From IMG/VR virus record IMGVR_UViG_3300031857_001009, positions 1 through 29,066 of that record: 29,066 nt of DNA. One strand, given 5' to 3'. The stretch comes from a virus. Under the pieces are notes generated by a model. That model had not been told where the DNA came from. It searched no databases and saw nothing but the letters and a program-made list of their open reading frames with translations. Positions within the stretch are counted from its first letter, which is position 1. The number at the start of each line of letters is the position of its first letter. The position numbers and the translations under genes are program-made. Below are positions 3,553-25,256 of the stretch, one piece after another.

Positions 3553-4344
3553 TTAGTCTAGGCAAATTTTGCATAATAGGAGCATCTTTCCATGAGGGCA
3601 TTTTGGTGGTGGGGAAGCTTGGGCTTCGAGTTCTGCCATCTGCTTTAGATAGTCATCGGAGTGCTTGCGTTCGTTTTCCTTCTTTGCCTGCGCCGATGCC
3701 GATCCGACAGCACCGAACTTCCAAGGCTGAGCCTTTGCCCTCTGTTGCTCTTGATTCATCCAACGCTGGAATGTCAGCGACCAGTCTTTGTGCTTTGTGC
3801 CTTTAGACCAGTAGTAGAGCTTGAACTGCTCGATGTTGTAAGTCGGGTCTAAATCAGGCCACTTAGTTTTGAACATCTCTAAAAGCTCTTTTGTTGGATT
3901 CCAGTCTTCGGGTAAAGGAAAATCTTTCCTAAAGGTTCTCTTTGGGTTATCTAACGGTTCGGGCGGTCTGGACACCGCACCCCCTGCGGTCTGGACACCG
4001 CCCCTTCCTGCGGTCTCTGTGTCACCTGCGGTCTGTAGACCGCCCCCCTTCTTTCGGCGGTGATTAGTGCTGCCATCGCAATCATCGGGGCAGGTAATGG
4101 ACAATTTATACAGGTTTGTAATTCCATCCCGGCGAACCTCAGTCAACTCCCCAAGTGCGATCAGTTCGTCAATTGCCCTTTGAACAGTTCTTCGATTCAA
4201 GCCCCCGGCAAGCCTGCCAATGGTCTCATGGGATGGATAAGCTCCATGTTCACCCTCAAAGTTGGCGATAGCGATCAGAACTAAGCGGGTTGAGTAAGTG
4301 GCCTGCGAGTGATAAAGACTTAGGGTTAGTGCTGAAATTGACAT
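3553..4344 (-). CDS. Winged-helix replication initiator
   Basis: A 263-residue protein. Residues about 15-100 form a helix-turn-helix domain (GAYPSHETIGRLAGGLNRRT then VQRAIDELIALGELTEVRRD), the form found in phage replisome organisers. A low-complexity Gly/Thr/Arg linker follows (about 104-132), encoded by the iteron-like repeats. The C-terminal domain (EDWNPTKELLEMFKTKWPDL, WSLTFQRWMNQ) resembles DnaD-like/primosome-interacting regions. The last residues, CPHGKMLLLCKIC, form a small zinc knuckle. DNA-binding domain, repeat-encoded linker and interaction domain occur in the same order as in lambda O. It probably binds the origin and recruits host helicase. Confidence 0.7.
   Translation of the reverse strand: MSISALTLSLYHSQATYSTRLVLIAIANFEGEHGAYPSHETIGRLAGGLNRRTVQRAIDELIALGELTEVRRDGITNLYKLSITCPDDCDGSTNHRRKKGGGLQTAGDTETAGRGGVQTAGGAVSRPPEPLDNPKRTFRKDFPLPEDWNPTKELLEMFKTKWPDLDPTYNIEQFKLYYWSKGTKHKDWSLTFQRWMNQEQQRAKAQPWKFGAVGSASAQAKKENERKHSDDYLKQMAELEAQASPPPKCPHGKMLLLCKICLD
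3963..4043. repeat. Four iteron-like repeats inside the initiator gene, candidate origin
   Basis: GCGGTCT occurs four times in one orientation, starting at 3963, 3986, 4010 and 4028 (spacings 23, 24 and 18 nt). The first two units are identical 16-mers, GCGGTCTGGACACCGC. The fourth, GCGGTCTGTAGACCGC, is a perfect inverted repeat with 7-bp arms. The third is degenerate in its right arm. The run encodes only the linker of the initiator. Such iterons in an initiator gene are the lambda-type origin layout. A less repetitive stretch with inverted repeat GGAAAATCTTTCC lies alongside at about 3917-3929. Origin function is inferred. Confidence 0.5.
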
Positions 4345-5711: not shown

Positions 5712-5802
5712 CCGATATTTTGGTTTATAAAGGCTTTTGACCATCAAAATAGATAAGGATAACCAAAAGCGGTCTAATGCCCTCTAATCGCATCCTAAGG
5801 CC

Positions 5803-7640: not shown

Positions 7641-7892
7641 ATGGCACATTTTGACCAGAAGCACTATCGCCTTCTCAAGGCTATTCATGCGGCTAATGGC
7701 GTGCCTTGCGAGGATTTCCCTGAGCTTTTCTATCCTGAGGACATTCGAGATGAGACACGCCGAAGGTTGTCTATCGTGATCGCCAAGAGGCTCTGTGACA
7801 CCTGCCCAGTCAAGGCTGAGTGCTTTAGGTATGCGGTGGAATCAGGCCAAAAGTATGGCATTTGGGCTGCAACTTTGCCCTCTGAAAGGTAG
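7641..7892 (+). CDS. whiB: WhiB-family Fe-S transcription factor
   Basis: The only plus-strand protein gene, 83 residues. Four cysteines, C23, C52, C55 and C61 (C-X28-C-X2-C-X5-C), form the WhiB [4Fe-4S] ligand set. The turn motif YGIWAATLP follows, with the GIW core but AA where GG is usual, and the tail is unusually short with little of the basic AT-hook-like C-terminus. WhiB proteins are nearly confined to Actinobacteria and their phages; phage copies such as the TM4 protein can act as dominant negatives on host WhiB function. Divergent from the exonuclease gene, with a 49-nt gap. The ribosome-binding site is weak, and the start could be regulated or leaderless. Confidence 0.9.
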   Translation: MAHFDQKHYRLLKAIHAANGVPCEDFPELFYPEDIRDETRRRLSIVIAKRLCDTCPVKAECFRYAVESGQKYGIWAATLPSER

Positions 7893-18004: not shown

Positions 18005-18799
18005 CTATTCTACCGACATTGTTCTGACCATCTCCGAAATCATCGGCCCTCTGAGGTAGCGGCTGTTGCGCCAGAGCAGTCGGTTGGTGTAGCTGAATTT
18101 GGTGGCAAGTCTGCGGTCAATCATGTTCGTTATGGTTGGTATCACTTCGATATCATCTCTGCCTAGCCGCTTGGCAATCATCTTTACTAGGTCGTATTTG
18201 GAAACCCAGTCATCGGGGACTAGGTGCTGAGTTCCAGCTAATAGGTAATTCTGTTTTATTATCCCTGCGACCACCCTTGCAAACGCCTCAGTTGTCACGC
18301 CGTTCCAGTAGTGATTGACAAAGCCGTTTATCCTTGCGCCTTCGGGTTGGTTCTTTACCCAGTCGAATAGCGAGCCTGTGCCGTTCGCTCCGATTATTGA
18401 GCATCGCAGGTTGAGCCAGTTGGCTGCCGAGACCTCGCCTCGCTTCTTGCTCACGCCGTAGGGGTCGGTTGCGTCTCGTTCGGAGTCTTCTGTATAGAAA
18501 CCTTTGTCACCTGCAAACACGCAGTCAGTTGCAATCTGAATGAAGTAGATGTCTTTGCGAGTTGCGAGCAGGTGCGGGTAATCGCCGTTTATCTTTTCCA
18601 GCTTCTCGACTGTCGGCTTCTTCTGTGGGATTACGCCAATGCAGTTAATTACAACATCGCCTTCGGTCAGCATGAATCGGTCAATCGAGTTGGGTGCTTC
18701 ATACTCCGAGCGTGAGGGTGCAATCAAGTCAAAAGAAGAAAGCTCTTTGACCATCGCCGAGCCAAGCATCCCCTCAGCTCCCAAGATGAGAACCTTCAC
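18005..18799 (-). CDS. NAD(P)-dependent sugar reductase, RmlD-like
   Basis: A 264-residue Rossmann-fold protein. The GAEGMLG motif at residues 8-14 binds the cofactor. FIQIATDCVFAGDKGFYTED and DPYGVSKKRGE carry the extended-SDR catalytic Thr and YxxxK. This matches dTDP-4-dehydrorhamnose reductase (RmlD) and related NDP-sugar epimerase/reductases. It follows two glycosyltransferases, suggesting local provision of a modified sugar. No complete dTDP-rhamnose pathway is present in the window, so a host precursor is likely. Substrate specificity cannot be set from sequence. Confidence 0.75.
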   Translation of the reverse strand: MKVLILGAEGMLGSAMVKELSSFDLIAPSRSEYEAPNSIDRFMLTEGDVVINCIGVIPQKKPTVEKLEKINGDYPHLLATRKDIYFIQIATDCVFAGDKGFYTEDSERDATDPYGVSKKRGEVSAANWLNLRCSIIGANGTGSLFDWVKNQPEGARINGFVNHYWNGVTTEAFARVVAGIIKQNYLLAGTQHLVPDDWVSKYDLVKMIAKRLGRDDIEVIPTITNMIDRRLATKFSYTNRLLWRNSRYLRGPMISEMVRTMSVE

Positions 18800-19491
18800 C
18801 TGAGCGACCTTGATAGCTGTCTAATTTGCTCCATGCCCTCTGCTCTTTCATCAGGCCCAAGCAATGCCCCAGAGGTTGTCATGCGGTCATAACCTCTGTC
18901 AAAAACAATCCTCATCGTAGGAGTGTTGTATGGCTTTACAAGGTCCGTTTTCCTCATGTGTAGCGCAAGACCCCAGTCGGCGAATCTTATGCCCTCAGGG
19001 AAGCCTCCAGAGGCTTGCCAGAGGTGTTTGGTCATGGGGTTAGCACCGCCCAATTCAAACTCATAATCAAGGGTCATTGGATTCCAAATGCACTGCTGAA
19101 CCGAGTCCGACCCTTTGGTTCTAAGCCAGTCGCAAACTAGGTTGCATCCCGCCGCCTCTGCCTCAGGTATCGAGTTCAAGGCTTTAGGCAGGAAATAGTC
19201 GTCAACATTACAAATAGCTATCCACTTGCCAACGCATAGATAGATTGCTTGATTCCAATACTCGGCATAGCTATTTAGGTTTTCTTTTATTACCCTGACA
19301 ACACCCTCATTCGGAACGCTTGCCTTGACCGCTTCCCAGTTCTTCTCATCGGTGACAATGTTTATCTCAAACGGCTTAGTCTCTAGCGACTGCACTCCTG
19401 CCCACCATTGAGGCAGGAATTGAGAATAACCATCTCCCCAAATTGCTAGGGGTAGAGAGATTAGACCAGAGTCTTCAGGAATGGTAACCAA
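18796..19491 (-). CDS. Glycosyltransferase, GT-A (GT2-like) fold
   Basis: A 231-residue protein. NQAIYLCVGKWIAICNVDDY (about residues 88-107) contains the DD sugar-nucleotide/metal motif of GT-A enzymes, preceded by FEINIVTDEKNWEAV. A C-terminal PEGIRFADWGLALHMRK fits the acceptor domain pattern of GT2-like enzymes. It overlaps the GT-B gene by 31 nt and the reductase by 4 nt. It probably transfers a sugar to a virion or host surface substrate. Confidence 0.65.
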   Translation of the reverse strand: MVTIPEDSGLISLPLAIWGDGYSQFLPQWWAGVQSLETKPFEINIVTDEKNWEAVKASVPNEGVVRVIKENLNSYAEYWNQAIYLCVGKWIAICNVDDYFLPKALNSIPEAEAAGCNLVCDWLRTKGSDSVQQCIWNPMTLDYEFELGGANPMTKHLWQASGGFPEGIRFADWGLALHMRKTDLVKPYNTPTMRIVFDRGYDRMTTSGALLGPDERAEGMEQIRQLSRSLR

Positions 19492-20663
19492 TAGTGATTC
19501 CAGACTTTCACATCGTCAAACTGTTGAGCGAACTTGCGTGAGGTTTCTGAGTAGCGACCTTCTTCTTTTGTTACCTGATAAGCCTTCTCTAGCTGTTGTG
19601 CGATTGACGAGATATAGGGAACTTTCCACCATGCAATCTGCGCCTCATCCCAGAAGAGCTGTCCCTGAACCTTGAAGCCGTCTTCTGCTACCAAGTCTCT
19701 CGGCCCTGTCCAGTCGGATGCGATGACTCTTGTGCCACAGGCTTGCGCCTCAATGATTGGAATTTCAAATCCGCCACCGAGCGAAATCTGCAAGACAACA
19801 TCGGCAGCCGAGTAGAAGCCAGCTAGGTCTTTCGGATCAACTCCTAAGCGGTAGTCGATGGGGTCAGGGAAGATAACAGAAGACATATCAAGCCCGCAAG
19901 CCTCAGCTAGTCGGGGAAGGTGAAAGCCACCATAAACACCCTTTGGTTCGGTGTGAACATAGAGATAAGCGTTCGGGTGTGTCTGTCGGAACATTGCAAA
20001 AGCCATGAAAGCCTCAGCGAAAGCCTTGCGGTGAATTGACTTGTTTGCTTTGTTAGCGGCATTCATTACGACTAGGAAGTCATCTTCCTTCACGCCTAGA
20101 AACTCTCTGCCGTCTTGCTTGCCAATCTTGTCGGTGCGCTTAAAGGTGTTGACTGTATCTATCGAGTGAGGAATATAAATGCCCTCAATGCCGACATCTT
20201 GCAACTGCTCCATGCCGAAGGGTGACATTGCAATCGGTTGAACATTGTCTTTGTCTAGCCAACGCTTGACCGCAGGGGGCATTGAGATATGGTCTAGCGG
20301 TGTCCAGCTAAGAATGTTCGGCCACTCTTCTGTCGGCCACATCTCAGGCTTTAGAACCCAGACATCGCAAAGTGTCAGGATGTAATCTTTCCAATCCTTC
20401 TTTGCCATCTGCATCTTGTGTCCGACTGCAAGTGCATCCTGCGACATCGGCTCATAACCTCTTGCGTAGTGTGGGATTTCTCCATAAGGGGTTTTGTGCG
20501 TTGAGTTGTTTCCCTCTAGTCCGTAGTTCGAGACATGGGCAACATTCGCTCCATGCTTTGCAAGGTTGTCAACAAGTTGCCCGATCTGCATTCCGTAGCC
20601 TGTCGGCTGGTATGGCGAATTGGAGAAGGTTGTAACTGTTAGGTCTAACTGCTCTGGCTTCAT
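19461..20663 (-). CDS. Glycosyltransferase, GT-B (GT4-like) fold
   Basis: A 400-residue two-domain protein. The N-terminal domain has SPYQPTGYGMQIGQLVDNLA and begins after MKPEQLDLTVTTFS; the C-terminal domain has FLVVMNAANKANKSIHRKAF, FYSAADVVLQISLGGGFEIP and IIEAQACGTRVIASDWTGPR, the classic GT4 nucleotide-sugar-binding E-x7-E region. It is the first gene of the glycan cassette, preceded by its own promoter-like sequence and AAAGGA. Confidence 0.8.
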   Translation of the reverse strand: MKPEQLDLTVTTFSNSPYQPTGYGMQIGQLVDNLAKHGANVAHVSNYGLEGNNSTHKTPYGEIPHYARGYEPMSQDALAVGHKMQMAKKDWKDYILTLCDVWVLKPEMWPTEEWPNILSWTPLDHISMPPAVKRWLDKDNVQPIAMSPFGMEQLQDVGIEGIYIPHSIDTVNTFKRTDKIGKQDGREFLGVKEDDFLVVMNAANKANKSIHRKAFAEAFMAFAMFRQTHPNAYLYVHTEPKGVYGGFHLPRLAEACGLDMSSVIFPDPIDYRLGVDPKDLAGFYSAADVVLQISLGGGFEIPIIEAQACGTRVIASDWTGPRDLVAEDGFKVQGQLFWDEAQIAWWKVPYISSIAQQLEKAYQVTKEEGRYSETSRKFAQQFDDVKVWNHYWLPFLKTLV

Positions 20664-22294: not shown

Positions 22295-23817
22295 TAGTTC
22301 CTCTTTAGTAGTAGGTCAAGCTGTTTGCGCTTTAGGTCCAGCAGGTTTGGCTCTTCGGTCTTTTCTTCTTCTACCTGCGTCACAGGGGAAAGAGTGTCAA
22401 CAACCTTCTTGATTAGCTCTGCCTCGGTGTCTGACAAATCAGAACCTTCCTCTAGCTTGAGGACTGCATCAGCCAAAGCGTCAGCGTCAACCTGCGCTCT
22501 AGTTGCAACCTTGTCGAGTGAGCGAACCATTGCCTCGGTTGCAGCGTAAGCAGGAAACGCAACAATGCTTGTCTCGAACAAACGAACACTCTTGAGAGTG
22601 CGCTGTGTCATTTCTTGATTCCATGAGTCTTTGATAACTGAGAAGCCAAAGCTCATCTTGTTTAGGTCTCCTCGGCGGAGTAGCTCAGCCATGTCTCGAC
22701 CATCGGAAGTGTTTGGCAGGCTTGCTTCTACCCTGAGTCCAATCTCGTCCTCGTAGAGCTTCATTGTGCCTGAGCGAGTGGATGCAAGAACTCGACCAGT
22801 GTCGTGATTGACCAACAGCTTGACATCGTTGCGAGAGCGTAGCGAGCGACGGAATGCGCCGGGTTCGATTGTCTCGACAAAGCCACCTAAGTCTTCTGAT
22901 GGGGAGTTGAACTTTGCAGCGTAACCAATAAAGGTCATGCCATCGCCTTCGGCCCTTAGCTCAAAGTCAGCGTCAAAGTTTCTGGTTTCTTGCTTCATGT
23001 TTGCTCTCTCTTGCTCGGCTTCTAGTCTAGTCTTTACACCTTCTGCATAAGCCATCGCTCGTCTCGCAGATCGCTTAGTTGTTCCGCCACCCCATAGAGC
23101 CATTGCAACAACTCCGGGTGATGGGAAGTTTTCTGATGAGGGGTTGGCATCAGGTGAATCTAAATCTCCCAAGTGTCTTGCAATCCAAGCTGCAATCCGA
23201 ACCCACTTGTCGGCGGAGACATTGCCCTCAGCCATTGCTCTAGCTTCTCTGATTGTGCGATCTACTAGACCATCTCCGCCAAGCCCTTCGGAATACCATT
23301 GCAAACCTCTGCGAGCAGATGCTCTCATGTAGGCAGGTGCGGTCAAATCAACCTGACGAACCTCGTCATCGTCTTCATCGTCTTCTGGCTCATCCATTGG
23401 TTCTGGTAGCGGGTCAATCTTTGTCAGCGTTGAGAACTTGTGTCCAACATAGACATCGGTGTCATCCCAGCCACCCTCTACTCTTTGGTAAACCTGAATC
23501 AAAGCGGCAGGGTCATCGGGAGTGCCTGTGATTGTGAATGATGAGTCTGGAACATTTATTGTTCCGTCTCGCTCAATCTGGACAATCTCGCCTCTGGCTC
23601 GACCGCCTGAAGTATTCCAAGAAACATAATCGCCAACCTCAAGCTCAGTTGGTCTTGCTCTTTCTCCACCGGGTTCGATGCCCTCAGAGATTGAGACAGC
23701 GACCATCTGGTCAATGGCATCTTGCTTGGTTGTGTGACAGCCAATTACTTCGCCGTCTTCTTTTACAGTGGCCCAACCTGAGCAGTCAGGTGATTGGTCA
23801 GTTATGAAGTATGGCAT
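22294..23817 (-). CDS. Prohead protease with N-terminal TUDOR-like and additional domain
   Basis: A 507-residue protein. Residues about 60-135 (VGDYVSWNTSGGRARGEIVQ, HKFSTLTKI) look like a DUF2945/HVA1 TUDOR-like domain. Residues about 160-270 (YMRASARRGLQWYSEGLGG, VSADKWVRIAAWIARHLGD) form a second domain seen in phage head proteins. Residues about 275-440 are an HK97 S78 protease: GYAAKFNSPSEDL, LLVNHD with the catalytic His and NKMSFGFSV with the Ser. An internal ATG at 22998 with GAGAGAG ahead would give a 234-residue protease of standard size. The protease matures the capsid by cutting scaffold domains. Confidence 0.8.
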   Translation of the reverse strand: MPYFITDQSPDCSGWATVKEDGEVIGCHTTKQDAIDQMVAVSISEGIEPGGERARPTELEVGDYVSWNTSGGRARGEIVQIERDGTINVPDSSFTITGTPDDPAALIQVYQRVEGGWDDTDVYVGHKFSTLTKIDPLPEPMDEPEDDEDDDEVRQVDLTAPAYMRASARRGLQWYSEGLGGDGLVDRTIREARAMAEGNVSADKWVRIAAWIARHLGDLDSPDANPSSENFPSPGVVAMALWGGGTTKRSARRAMAYAEGVKTRLEAEQERANMKQETRNFDADFELRAEGDGMTFIGYAAKFNSPSEDLGGFVETIEPGAFRRSLRSRNDVKLLVNHDTGRVLASTRSGTMKLYEDEIGLRVEASLPNTSDGRDMAELLRRGDLNKMSFGFSVIKDSWNQEMTQRTLKSVRLFETSIVAFPAYAATEAMVRSLDKVATRAQVDADALADAVLKLEEGSDLSDTEAELIKKVVDTLSPVTQVEEEKTEEPNLLDLKRKQLDLLLKRN

Positions 23818-25256
23818 TAGCCGAGCCTCGCATTCACAGTTATTGTTCCCCCTAGTGCAACCGCTGTTCCGTTTATTGTGATGCCGCCTGCGGTTGTGTT
23901 GATGCTGATCGTCTGAGTTCCAGAGTCATAAACAATCGGCGATGTTGCAGCTACAACTCCAGAAGGTCCTTGCGGGCCAGTCGCTCCGGTTGCACCCTGC
24001 GGTCCAGTTGGGCCTGTCGGTCCTGTCGCTCCCGTAGCTCCAGTTGCTCCGGTTGGTCCAGCAGGTCCAGTTTCGCCTTGAATACCCTGTGGGCCTTGTG
24101 CGCCTGTTGCGCCAGTAGCACCAGTAGGGCCAGCCGGACCAGTATCACCTGTGTCACCTTTATCGCCCTTGTCACCCTTGAGTCCCTGAATACCTTGCTC
24201 CCCCTGAATACCTTGTGATCCTTGCGGTCCGGTTGCGCCAGTAGCTCCTGTTGGACCTGTGTTGCCTGTGTCCCCCTTATCACCCTTATCTCCCTTTAGT
24301 CCTTGAATCCCCTGTGGGCCAGTTGCACCTGTCGCTCCAGTAGCTCCGGTTGCGCCAGTCGCTCCGGTGTCACCCTTGTCACCTTTCGGCAAAACAAAGT
24401 TTAGAGTCTGCGATGGTGCTGTGCCTGTAACTGTTACCGCTGCCGCTGTTCCGCTTGTAACTGTTCCAACCGATAGAACTGTTGGCTGGCCTAAGACTGT
24501 TTCATTGACCCAAAGCTGTGTTGCCGAATCATAAACAAGCGACTGCCCATCGGTTAGACCATTGAACTTGACATTGTGAAGTTCGTCTAGTTCGTATCCG
24601 TTCTGAATGTTGACAAACAGAACACCATTGTTCTGGTTGGCCCTAACGCAATAGCCAATAAAGACTGAGTTGTTTGGTGGGACTGGCTTTGTCGAAGTCA
24701 GACCGCCGGGGACTGTTGGGGATAGCCAAACTGCTGCACCTTCGGTTAGTCCGTTGGTGTTTATGTTTCTGACAAGTCCAAAGCTGGCAGCGAATCCTTT
24801 GCTTCCACCGCTAATTGTCTCTGCCATAACTGCGATGGTTTTTGAACTAGTGACCTCTGAGTTTGCCTGAGCGTATGCGACAAGTTTGTTATTGCCGTCT
24901 GAGCCTGTGATGTAGACAGCTTTGCCCTTAGTGCGTTCAGTGTTATCCGAAGACTTTGCCAAGATAAAAAGCTCTTGCCCGACATTTTGATTGACAGTCG
25001 GGGTCATGCCAAGTTCTAGGGTCTTGTCTGTGTCGTTCCAACCAATTCGACCAACTGCGATAGAGGGAACTGAATTGACATTGAACTGGATGTAAGCAGG
25101 CTCAGCAATTGCGGTTGCGCCGATGATGTTGTCTACAAGTGTGGCTTGGTTCTGATTGACAGTTGCGCTGAATGTTCCGCTGGTGGTTATGGTTGCGGTA
25201 TTCGGTGCGGTGACTTGAACAATGCTTGTGCCACTTGTGACTGTGATTACGCTCAA
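23817..25256 (-). CDS. Collagen-like fibre protein
   Basis: A 479-residue protein with a TTG start overlapping the upstream stop (TTGA). Residues about 1-290 are a beta-rich domain ([37 protein letters not shown]) common in phage tail fibre and adhesin proteins. Residues 292-432 are 47 perfect Gly-X-Y triplets ([10 protein letters not shown]...), predicted to form a collagen-like triple helix. A 47-residue C-terminal domain ([18 protein letters not shown]) follows. Gene position between portal and protease suggests a head or vertex fibre rather than a tail fibre. Confidence 0.8.
23961..24383 (-). repeat. Collagen-encoding repeat tract
   Basis: About 423 nt of imperfect 9-nt repeats encode 47 Gly-X-Y triplets with no interruption. 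Recurrent blocks ([25 protein letters not shown]) occur at least twice, implying expansion by internal duplication. Such tracts recombine readily and vary in length between strains. Confidence 0.85.

Follow-up and report, generated by a model that had tools for sequence, protein, structure and literature searches.

The iterons of phage lambda and of the Stx phages are 19-bp imperfect inverted repeats, described together with O dimers and an AT-rich tract (PMC7466680; review PMC5043065). In oriL of SPP1 the repeats binding the gp38 initiator and an AT-rich unwinding element are located inside the initiator gene (PMC6316719), and in the iteron plasmids P1, F, RK2, pSC101, and R6K an array of initiator sites adjoins an AT-rich region (PMC5043065). 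The annotated lambda iterons start at 39034, 39054, 39078, and 39101, i.e., with a spacing of 20, 24, and 23, and the copies of TCGGTAAAA in P22 are spaced 20 and 24. Here, these systems are compared with an array of repeats within the replication initiator gene of the virus record IMGVR_UViG_3300031857_001009, the whole of which (29,066 bp) is referred to as the window. The repeats very likely represent a lambda-type origin located within the gene of its own initiator, the units serving as the iterons to which the latter binds. A lambda-O-like origin had been proposed in an earlier note on this DNA, and both the selection acting on the linker and the covariation of the repeats with the recognition helix support that proposal.

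The dyad array in the linker of the initiator gene

The gene, its domains, and the four repeat units are located as follows:

3553-4344, minus strand: replication initiator gene, 263 aa, comprising a winged helix, a linker, and a DnaT-like C domain (Pfam and PHROG profiles)
4051-4344, minus strand: N-terminal domain, residues 1-98, a DNA-binding winged helix (modelled with AlphaFold2 over residues 1-100)
4177-4200, minus strand: LNRRTVQR (residues 49-56), where the predicted recognition helix 51-64 begins (covariation peak and model)
4027-4044, minus strand: iteron 1, GGCGGTCTACAGACCGCA, 7 of 8 outer pairs complementary
4009-4026, minus strand: iteron 2, GGTGACACAGAGACCGCA, one half degenerate, 2 of 8 pairs, 18 bp from iteron 1
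3985-4002, minus strand: iteron 3, GGCGGTGTCCAGACCGCA, 6 of 8 pairs, spacing 24
3962-3979, minus strand: iteron 4, TGCGGTGTCCAGACCGCC, spacing 23, 6 of 8 pairs, with the 16-mer of iteron 3 read in a different frame
3727-3921, minus strand: DnaT-like C-terminal domain, residues 142-206 (PF17948, 26.5 bits, cut-off 25)

The array consists of four 18-bp units on the sense strand, three of them clearly dyadic, with a spacing of 18, 24, and 23 bp. On the plus strand GCGGTCT starts at 3963, 3986, 4010, and 4028 in the linker, and the coordinates given in the earlier note for four such units in one orientation are exact. The two identical 16-mers and the perfect inverted repeat that it reported were also found in place, the former being GCGGTCTGGACACCGC at 3963-3978 and 3986-4001, and the latter GCGGTCT-GT-AGACCGC at 4028-4043, with perfect 7-bp arms. 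One half of the unit at 4010-4025 is good and the other degenerate. Iterons 3 and 4, sharing the 16-mer, are read in different frames and encode different peptides. The array lies between the winged-helix and C-terminal domains, as had been claimed, since the HTH_36 and DnaT-like matches flank the linker. The claimed confinement of the repeats to the linker holds for the dyad array but not for GCGGTCT itself, because single copies of the latter occur elsewhere in the window, at 5769, 5858, 12142, 21416, 21479, and 24700. A 16-bp dyad pattern, with up to two mismatches allowed, has 10 matches in the window versus 1.5 expected (maximum 7 in 100 shuffles), and six of these are both-strand matches to three linker units. 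No second initiator-site array is present in the 29,066-bp window, the record being listed without completeness. By the direct-repeat score, from which the repeat numbers of the window are taken, the linker reaches 52; 1500 synonymous-codon shuffles of the gene, in which protein and codon content are preserved, averaged 14 and did not exceed 45. Chance and coding are excluded as the source of the linker repeats.

The linker is also conserved at the DNA level, in the following element:

3916-4055, no strand assigned: DNA-level conserved element, putative origin (near-zero synonymous variation between the window and relatives L003-L006)

In comparison with L005, whose protein is 81% identical, codons 99-148 contain two synonymous differences in 39 conserved residues versus 84/166 over the remaining codons (Fisher p=4e-8), and in comparison with L006 the respective values are 2/39 and 64/170 (p=3e-5); L004, 97% identical, shows the same direction without reaching significance (p=0.07). 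The quiet stretch, approximately 3916-4055, comprises the iterons and the adjoining AACC region, and codons 71-100 are likewise somewhat quiet at synonymous sites. The suspicion that selection on DNA drives the repeats is thereby supported, also by the family described below, in which 74 of 90 arrays extend over at least two reading frames.

Profile HTH_36 matches residues 18-65 of the initiator (E 7e-8) and the DnaT profile residues 142-206 (E 5e-6); among Pfam matches up to E 1 these two are the only ones, with no PF04492 (Phage_rep_O). The best PHROG is 8540, 'replication initiation O-like' (9e-18), and PHROG 391 (3e-10) is also O-like. AlphaFold2 applied to residues 1-100 with a 66-sequence alignment gave a winged helix with a mean pLDDT of 91, in which the predicted helix 51-64 would occupy the recognition position; an earlier structure model from seven sequences (pLDDT 55) was set aside. 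The search of the initiator sequence against solved structures gave a best E of 0.29. In the PDB fold search the model matched generic winged helices, many of them tied, including 4pql, 4pt7, and 5kbj at Z 7.4-7.8, and therefore no family was assigned; lambda O was absent among the matches listed.

Iterons and recognition helix among the relatives

Homologs collected by scanning viral contigs and from annotated phage records amounted to 278 genes, of which 108 remained after near-duplicates were removed by a k-mer cut-off; the family HMM (hidden Markov model) was built from the first batch. The iteron finder passed through a direct-repeat score, a dyad-seeded score, and finally the pooling of both half-sites, the last version giving the family numbers, with thresholds chosen by eye (score 60, 11/16 matches, 18-mer unit). 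The linker array beats all 8 synonymous shuffles in 98 of the 108 non-redundant homologs, and 90 of the family arrays are also above the score threshold. When eleven weak or odd relatives were re-read over a longer stretch, arrays were found downstream in L102, L181, L236, and L271, whereas in L060, L088, L093, L110, and L121 the array is still not clear. Relatives with the same HTH (helix-turn-helix) domain and no repeats had been named in the earlier note as evidence against it; most homologs side with the note in this respect, and the last five do not clearly do so. Iteron sequences vary between clades (e.g., GGTGTCGNNNNCGACACC, GGTGACGCCAGTGTCACC, and GGTGAAGCAGGGTTCACC), but the units within one array change together. 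In the type of the Curtobacterium phage Root the sites are GGTGAC. Units are spaced by 18-19 in 56 cases, by 22-25 in 123, and by 21 in two, with none at 20, the commonest patterns from the AACC side being 23,19; 23,24,19; and 23,24,18.

Scans of genome contigs for relatives gave nothing close, with one match at 29%. L110 is a weak relative (29% identity) on a contig of a Gammaproteobacteria MAG (metagenome-assembled genome), without a clear iteron array. The C-terminal part of the initiator varies, L011, L029, L054, and L061 having no DnaT match and the Arthrobacter phage initiators a cysteine-rich segment there. The persistence of the winged helix, the iterons, and the AACC repeat alongside differing C-terminal parts suggests modular swapping downstream of the putative origin.

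The earlier note had proposed to check whether the repeats covary with the HTH recognition helix, and they do. In the 90 arrays the half-site distance was compared with the distance of each 8-residue segment, all other positions of the DNA-binding domain being controlled. The partial correlation peaks at residues 49-56 (r 0.507), with a smaller secondary rise at residues 31-38 (0.23), and drops to around zero or into negative values past the helix; the values are uncorrected for the number of segments scanned, the peak being well above every segment outside the helix region. Residues 50-57 give a partial r of 0.46, which none of 2000 permutations reached (maximum 0.18), the partial Mantel design lowering but not removing the effect of shared ancestry. 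With pairs more than 75% identical excluded, nearest-neighbour prediction from residues 49-57 gave a half-site identity of 0.78, versus 0.60 when the remainder of the domain was used and 0.54-0.60 with control segments. Helices with RN.QK go with TGTCG, those with R(S/T)VQR mostly with TGAC, and those with (N/D)RR..QR with GCGG. In the most distant pairs (the remainder of the domain being <50% identical) residues 52/53/55/56 alone covary little with the half-site, and thus the specificity code depends on further residues. Taken together, the initiator very probably binds the array sites that lie within its own gene.

The AT-rich stretch and its AACC repeat

Beside the last iteron two further features are located:

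3905-3959, no strand assigned: AT-rich stretch, candidate DNA unwinding element, 62% AT versus 51% in the window
3934-3959, minus strand: three AACC motifs 11 bp apart, candidate unwinding-element repeats (GGTT on the plus strand at 3934, 3945, and 3956)

Among the 55-nt windows of the gene, 3905-3959 ranks in the top 7% for AT. The AACC(ATCC) repeat with a period of 11-13 nt is found in the AT-rich stretch beside the arrays of the family, and in 78 of the 90 the first AACC is exactly 2 nt past the last 18-mer; where possible, a unit with AACC within a few bases had been chosen as the last one, which biases towards a short offset but not towards 2. Pairs of AACC at 11 nt number 62 in the family (synonymous-shuffle mean 18.6, maximum 29), those at 12 nt 38 (14.1, 21), and those at 13 nt 19 (7.1, 14). 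In the family the last iterons have an AT content of 24-29% and the next 45 nt one of 50-55%, a rise partly due to the amino acids, as shuffles already give 41-46%. A scan for AACCATCCNNNAACCATCC yielded 55 stretches, approximately 25 of them in ORFs (open reading frames) with a match to the family profile, and dyads immediately precede nearly all of these. It is also worth mentioning that in L306, L318, L341, and L342 AACCATCC repeats directly follow site-like repeats in ORFs without a match to the family profile; the motif may be wider than this initiator family.

DnaA boxes number 22 in the linkers of the relatives, versus 1.2 expected and a maximum of 4 in 100 shuffles; they are present in 22 of 108 linkers. 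In many of these 22 a box lies just ahead of the first iteron, often at a distance of 11 nt, examples being L056, L071, L078, L096, L098, L109, and L273. This placement suggests that host DnaA takes part in the origins of some relatives.

The iterons, which change freely, can be contrasted with the AACC repeat, whose period of 11-13 nt and distance of 2 nt from the last iteron are kept despite the differing iterons. This division may reflect an origin of two parts, a private one made of iterons under the helix code and a common AACCATCC-type one acting as an undescribed unwinding motif read by a shared factor. The latter is conceived by analogy with the DnaA-trios of bacterial origins, and we regard the whole idea as a tentative one, with the odds slightly against it.

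Alternative readings and known systems

The main rival of an origin is an intragenic operator, i.e., an array bound by the initiator to control transcription of its own operon and not replication. Many winged-helix proteins autoregulate, and the covariation and DNA-level selection reveal a site of the protein, not the consequence of its binding. Such an operator would lie approximately 300 bp inside the gene and adjoin an AT-rich repeat stretch; moreover, the geometry agrees with the known origin of lambda, DnaA boxes occur in the linkers of relatives, and the protein belongs to replication-initiator PHROGs, which together make the operator improbable. The dyads would also fold in the transcript, so RNA hairpins in the rep mRNA could serve attenuation or translation control, but the sequence of the sites tracks a DNA-recognition helix, no Rfam match reaches the gathering score, and terminator-like sites are at chance level, the sole one, at 3846-3860, being outside the array; an RNA element was rejected on these grounds and is highly improbable. 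Least credible of all, with a negligible chance, is that the DNA repeats are a by-product of repeated peptide units. The linker peptide is indeed of low complexity and Gly/Thr-rich (GGGLQTAG, GGGVQTAG), yet the identical 16-mers are translated in different frames into different peptides, 0/1500 synonymous shuffles reach the observed score, and synonymous sites in the linker are silent, by which this explanation is refuted.

An origin thus remains the best reading, on account of the anatomy and the lambda geometry, the step from site to origin being one that we infer. By analogy, the initiator would work like lambda O at its origin: dimers of the N-terminal winged helix would read the 18-bp dyads via the helix starting near residue 51, an O-some-like complex would assemble on the four phased sites and destabilise the AT-rich AACC stretch, which begins at a distance of 2 bp from the last of these, and recruitment of the host helicase would be aided by the DnaT-like C-terminal domain, whereupon the origin would fire.

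Several points weigh against this proposal. Origin activity is inferred from the sequence, and the covariation supports the binding of the protein to its sites, yet an operator would give the same signal. Helicase loading by the DnaT-like domain is presumed from a marginal domain match. The GC-skew switch that the earlier note asked for is not visible at the array, the 29-kb record being uninformative for skew, and no TTATCCACA-type DnaA box with up to one mismatch is present near 3900-4100 in the window. Judging from the profiles, the initiator is not a member of the Pfam family of lambda O, which itself matches PF04492 at 6e-36, and the hhalign profile comparison of the two proteins gave a probability of 0.4%. 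They fall in overlapping O-like PHROGs with weak sharing; with this as the sole link, a sequence relation to lambda O was rejected.

The window carries phage genes for terminase subunits, a WhiB-like regulator, and an endolysin. The WhiB-like gene at 7641-7892 is on the plus strand, opposite to the initiator gene, pointing to an actinobacterial host. At 18005-20663 (minus strand), amid head genes, three ORFs judged by eye resemble a sugar-nucleotide reductase and glycosyltransferases, and the ORF at 23817-25256 (minus strand), with long collagen-like Gly-X-Y repeats, probably encodes a protein of the tail or of a fibre. Shortly before start codons, L298, L300, L302, L304, L307, L308, L325, L329, and L331 contain another conserved element, GGATGGTTGGCCGGCCGCAGGTTCAACCATCCGNNAACCATCC, with the appearance of a repeated operator that has no connection to the origin.

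If the proposed role is correct, lambda-style gene-embedded origins would extend to a large phage family, including named Arthrobacter and Curtobacterium phages, in which initiators outside the Pfam family of lambda O act on iterons of nearly the same geometry. The paired variation of helix and iteron would represent a natural specificity code, testable by residue swaps, as well as a practical route to origins in uncharacterised phage genomes, and the shared AACC repeat raises the concrete question of what opens the DNA. At the level of titles, abstracts, and passages, neither this origin nor the AACC repeat is described in the literature searched, and in the records examined the genes of the Decurro, Kels, and Root type are annotated merely as HTH or O-like proteins.

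Among the known systems, lambda O with its ori shares with the window an origin (putative in the latter) within the initiator gene, between the DNA-binding and C-terminal parts, P22 gene 18 being similar. Both have dyadic iterons of 18-20 bp, with a spacing of 20/24/23 in lambda and 18/24/23 in the window, an AT-rich stretch adjoining the last iteron, and iteron copies in several reading frames. Unlike lambda, the window, from an actinophage-like virus, encodes an HTH_36 initiator without Phage_rep_O, has another iteron sequence, contains the 11-nt AACC repeats where lambda has an A-rich tract, and has the DnaT-like C domain as part of the initiator itself. SPP1 oriL likewise has initiator sites and an AT-rich element, a candidate one in the window, inside the initiator gene, but it differs in having a second origin, oriR, and sites described as direct repeats. 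In the iteron plasmids, too, initiator sites are arrayed next to an AT-rich region, whereas the sites in the window are dyads inside a coding sequence. Finally, the PHROG 8540 phages (Arthrobacter Decurro and Kels, and Curtobacterium Root) have a homologous winged helix, a dyad-bearing linker, and the AACC repeat, and differ from the window in their iteron sequences and C-terminal domains.
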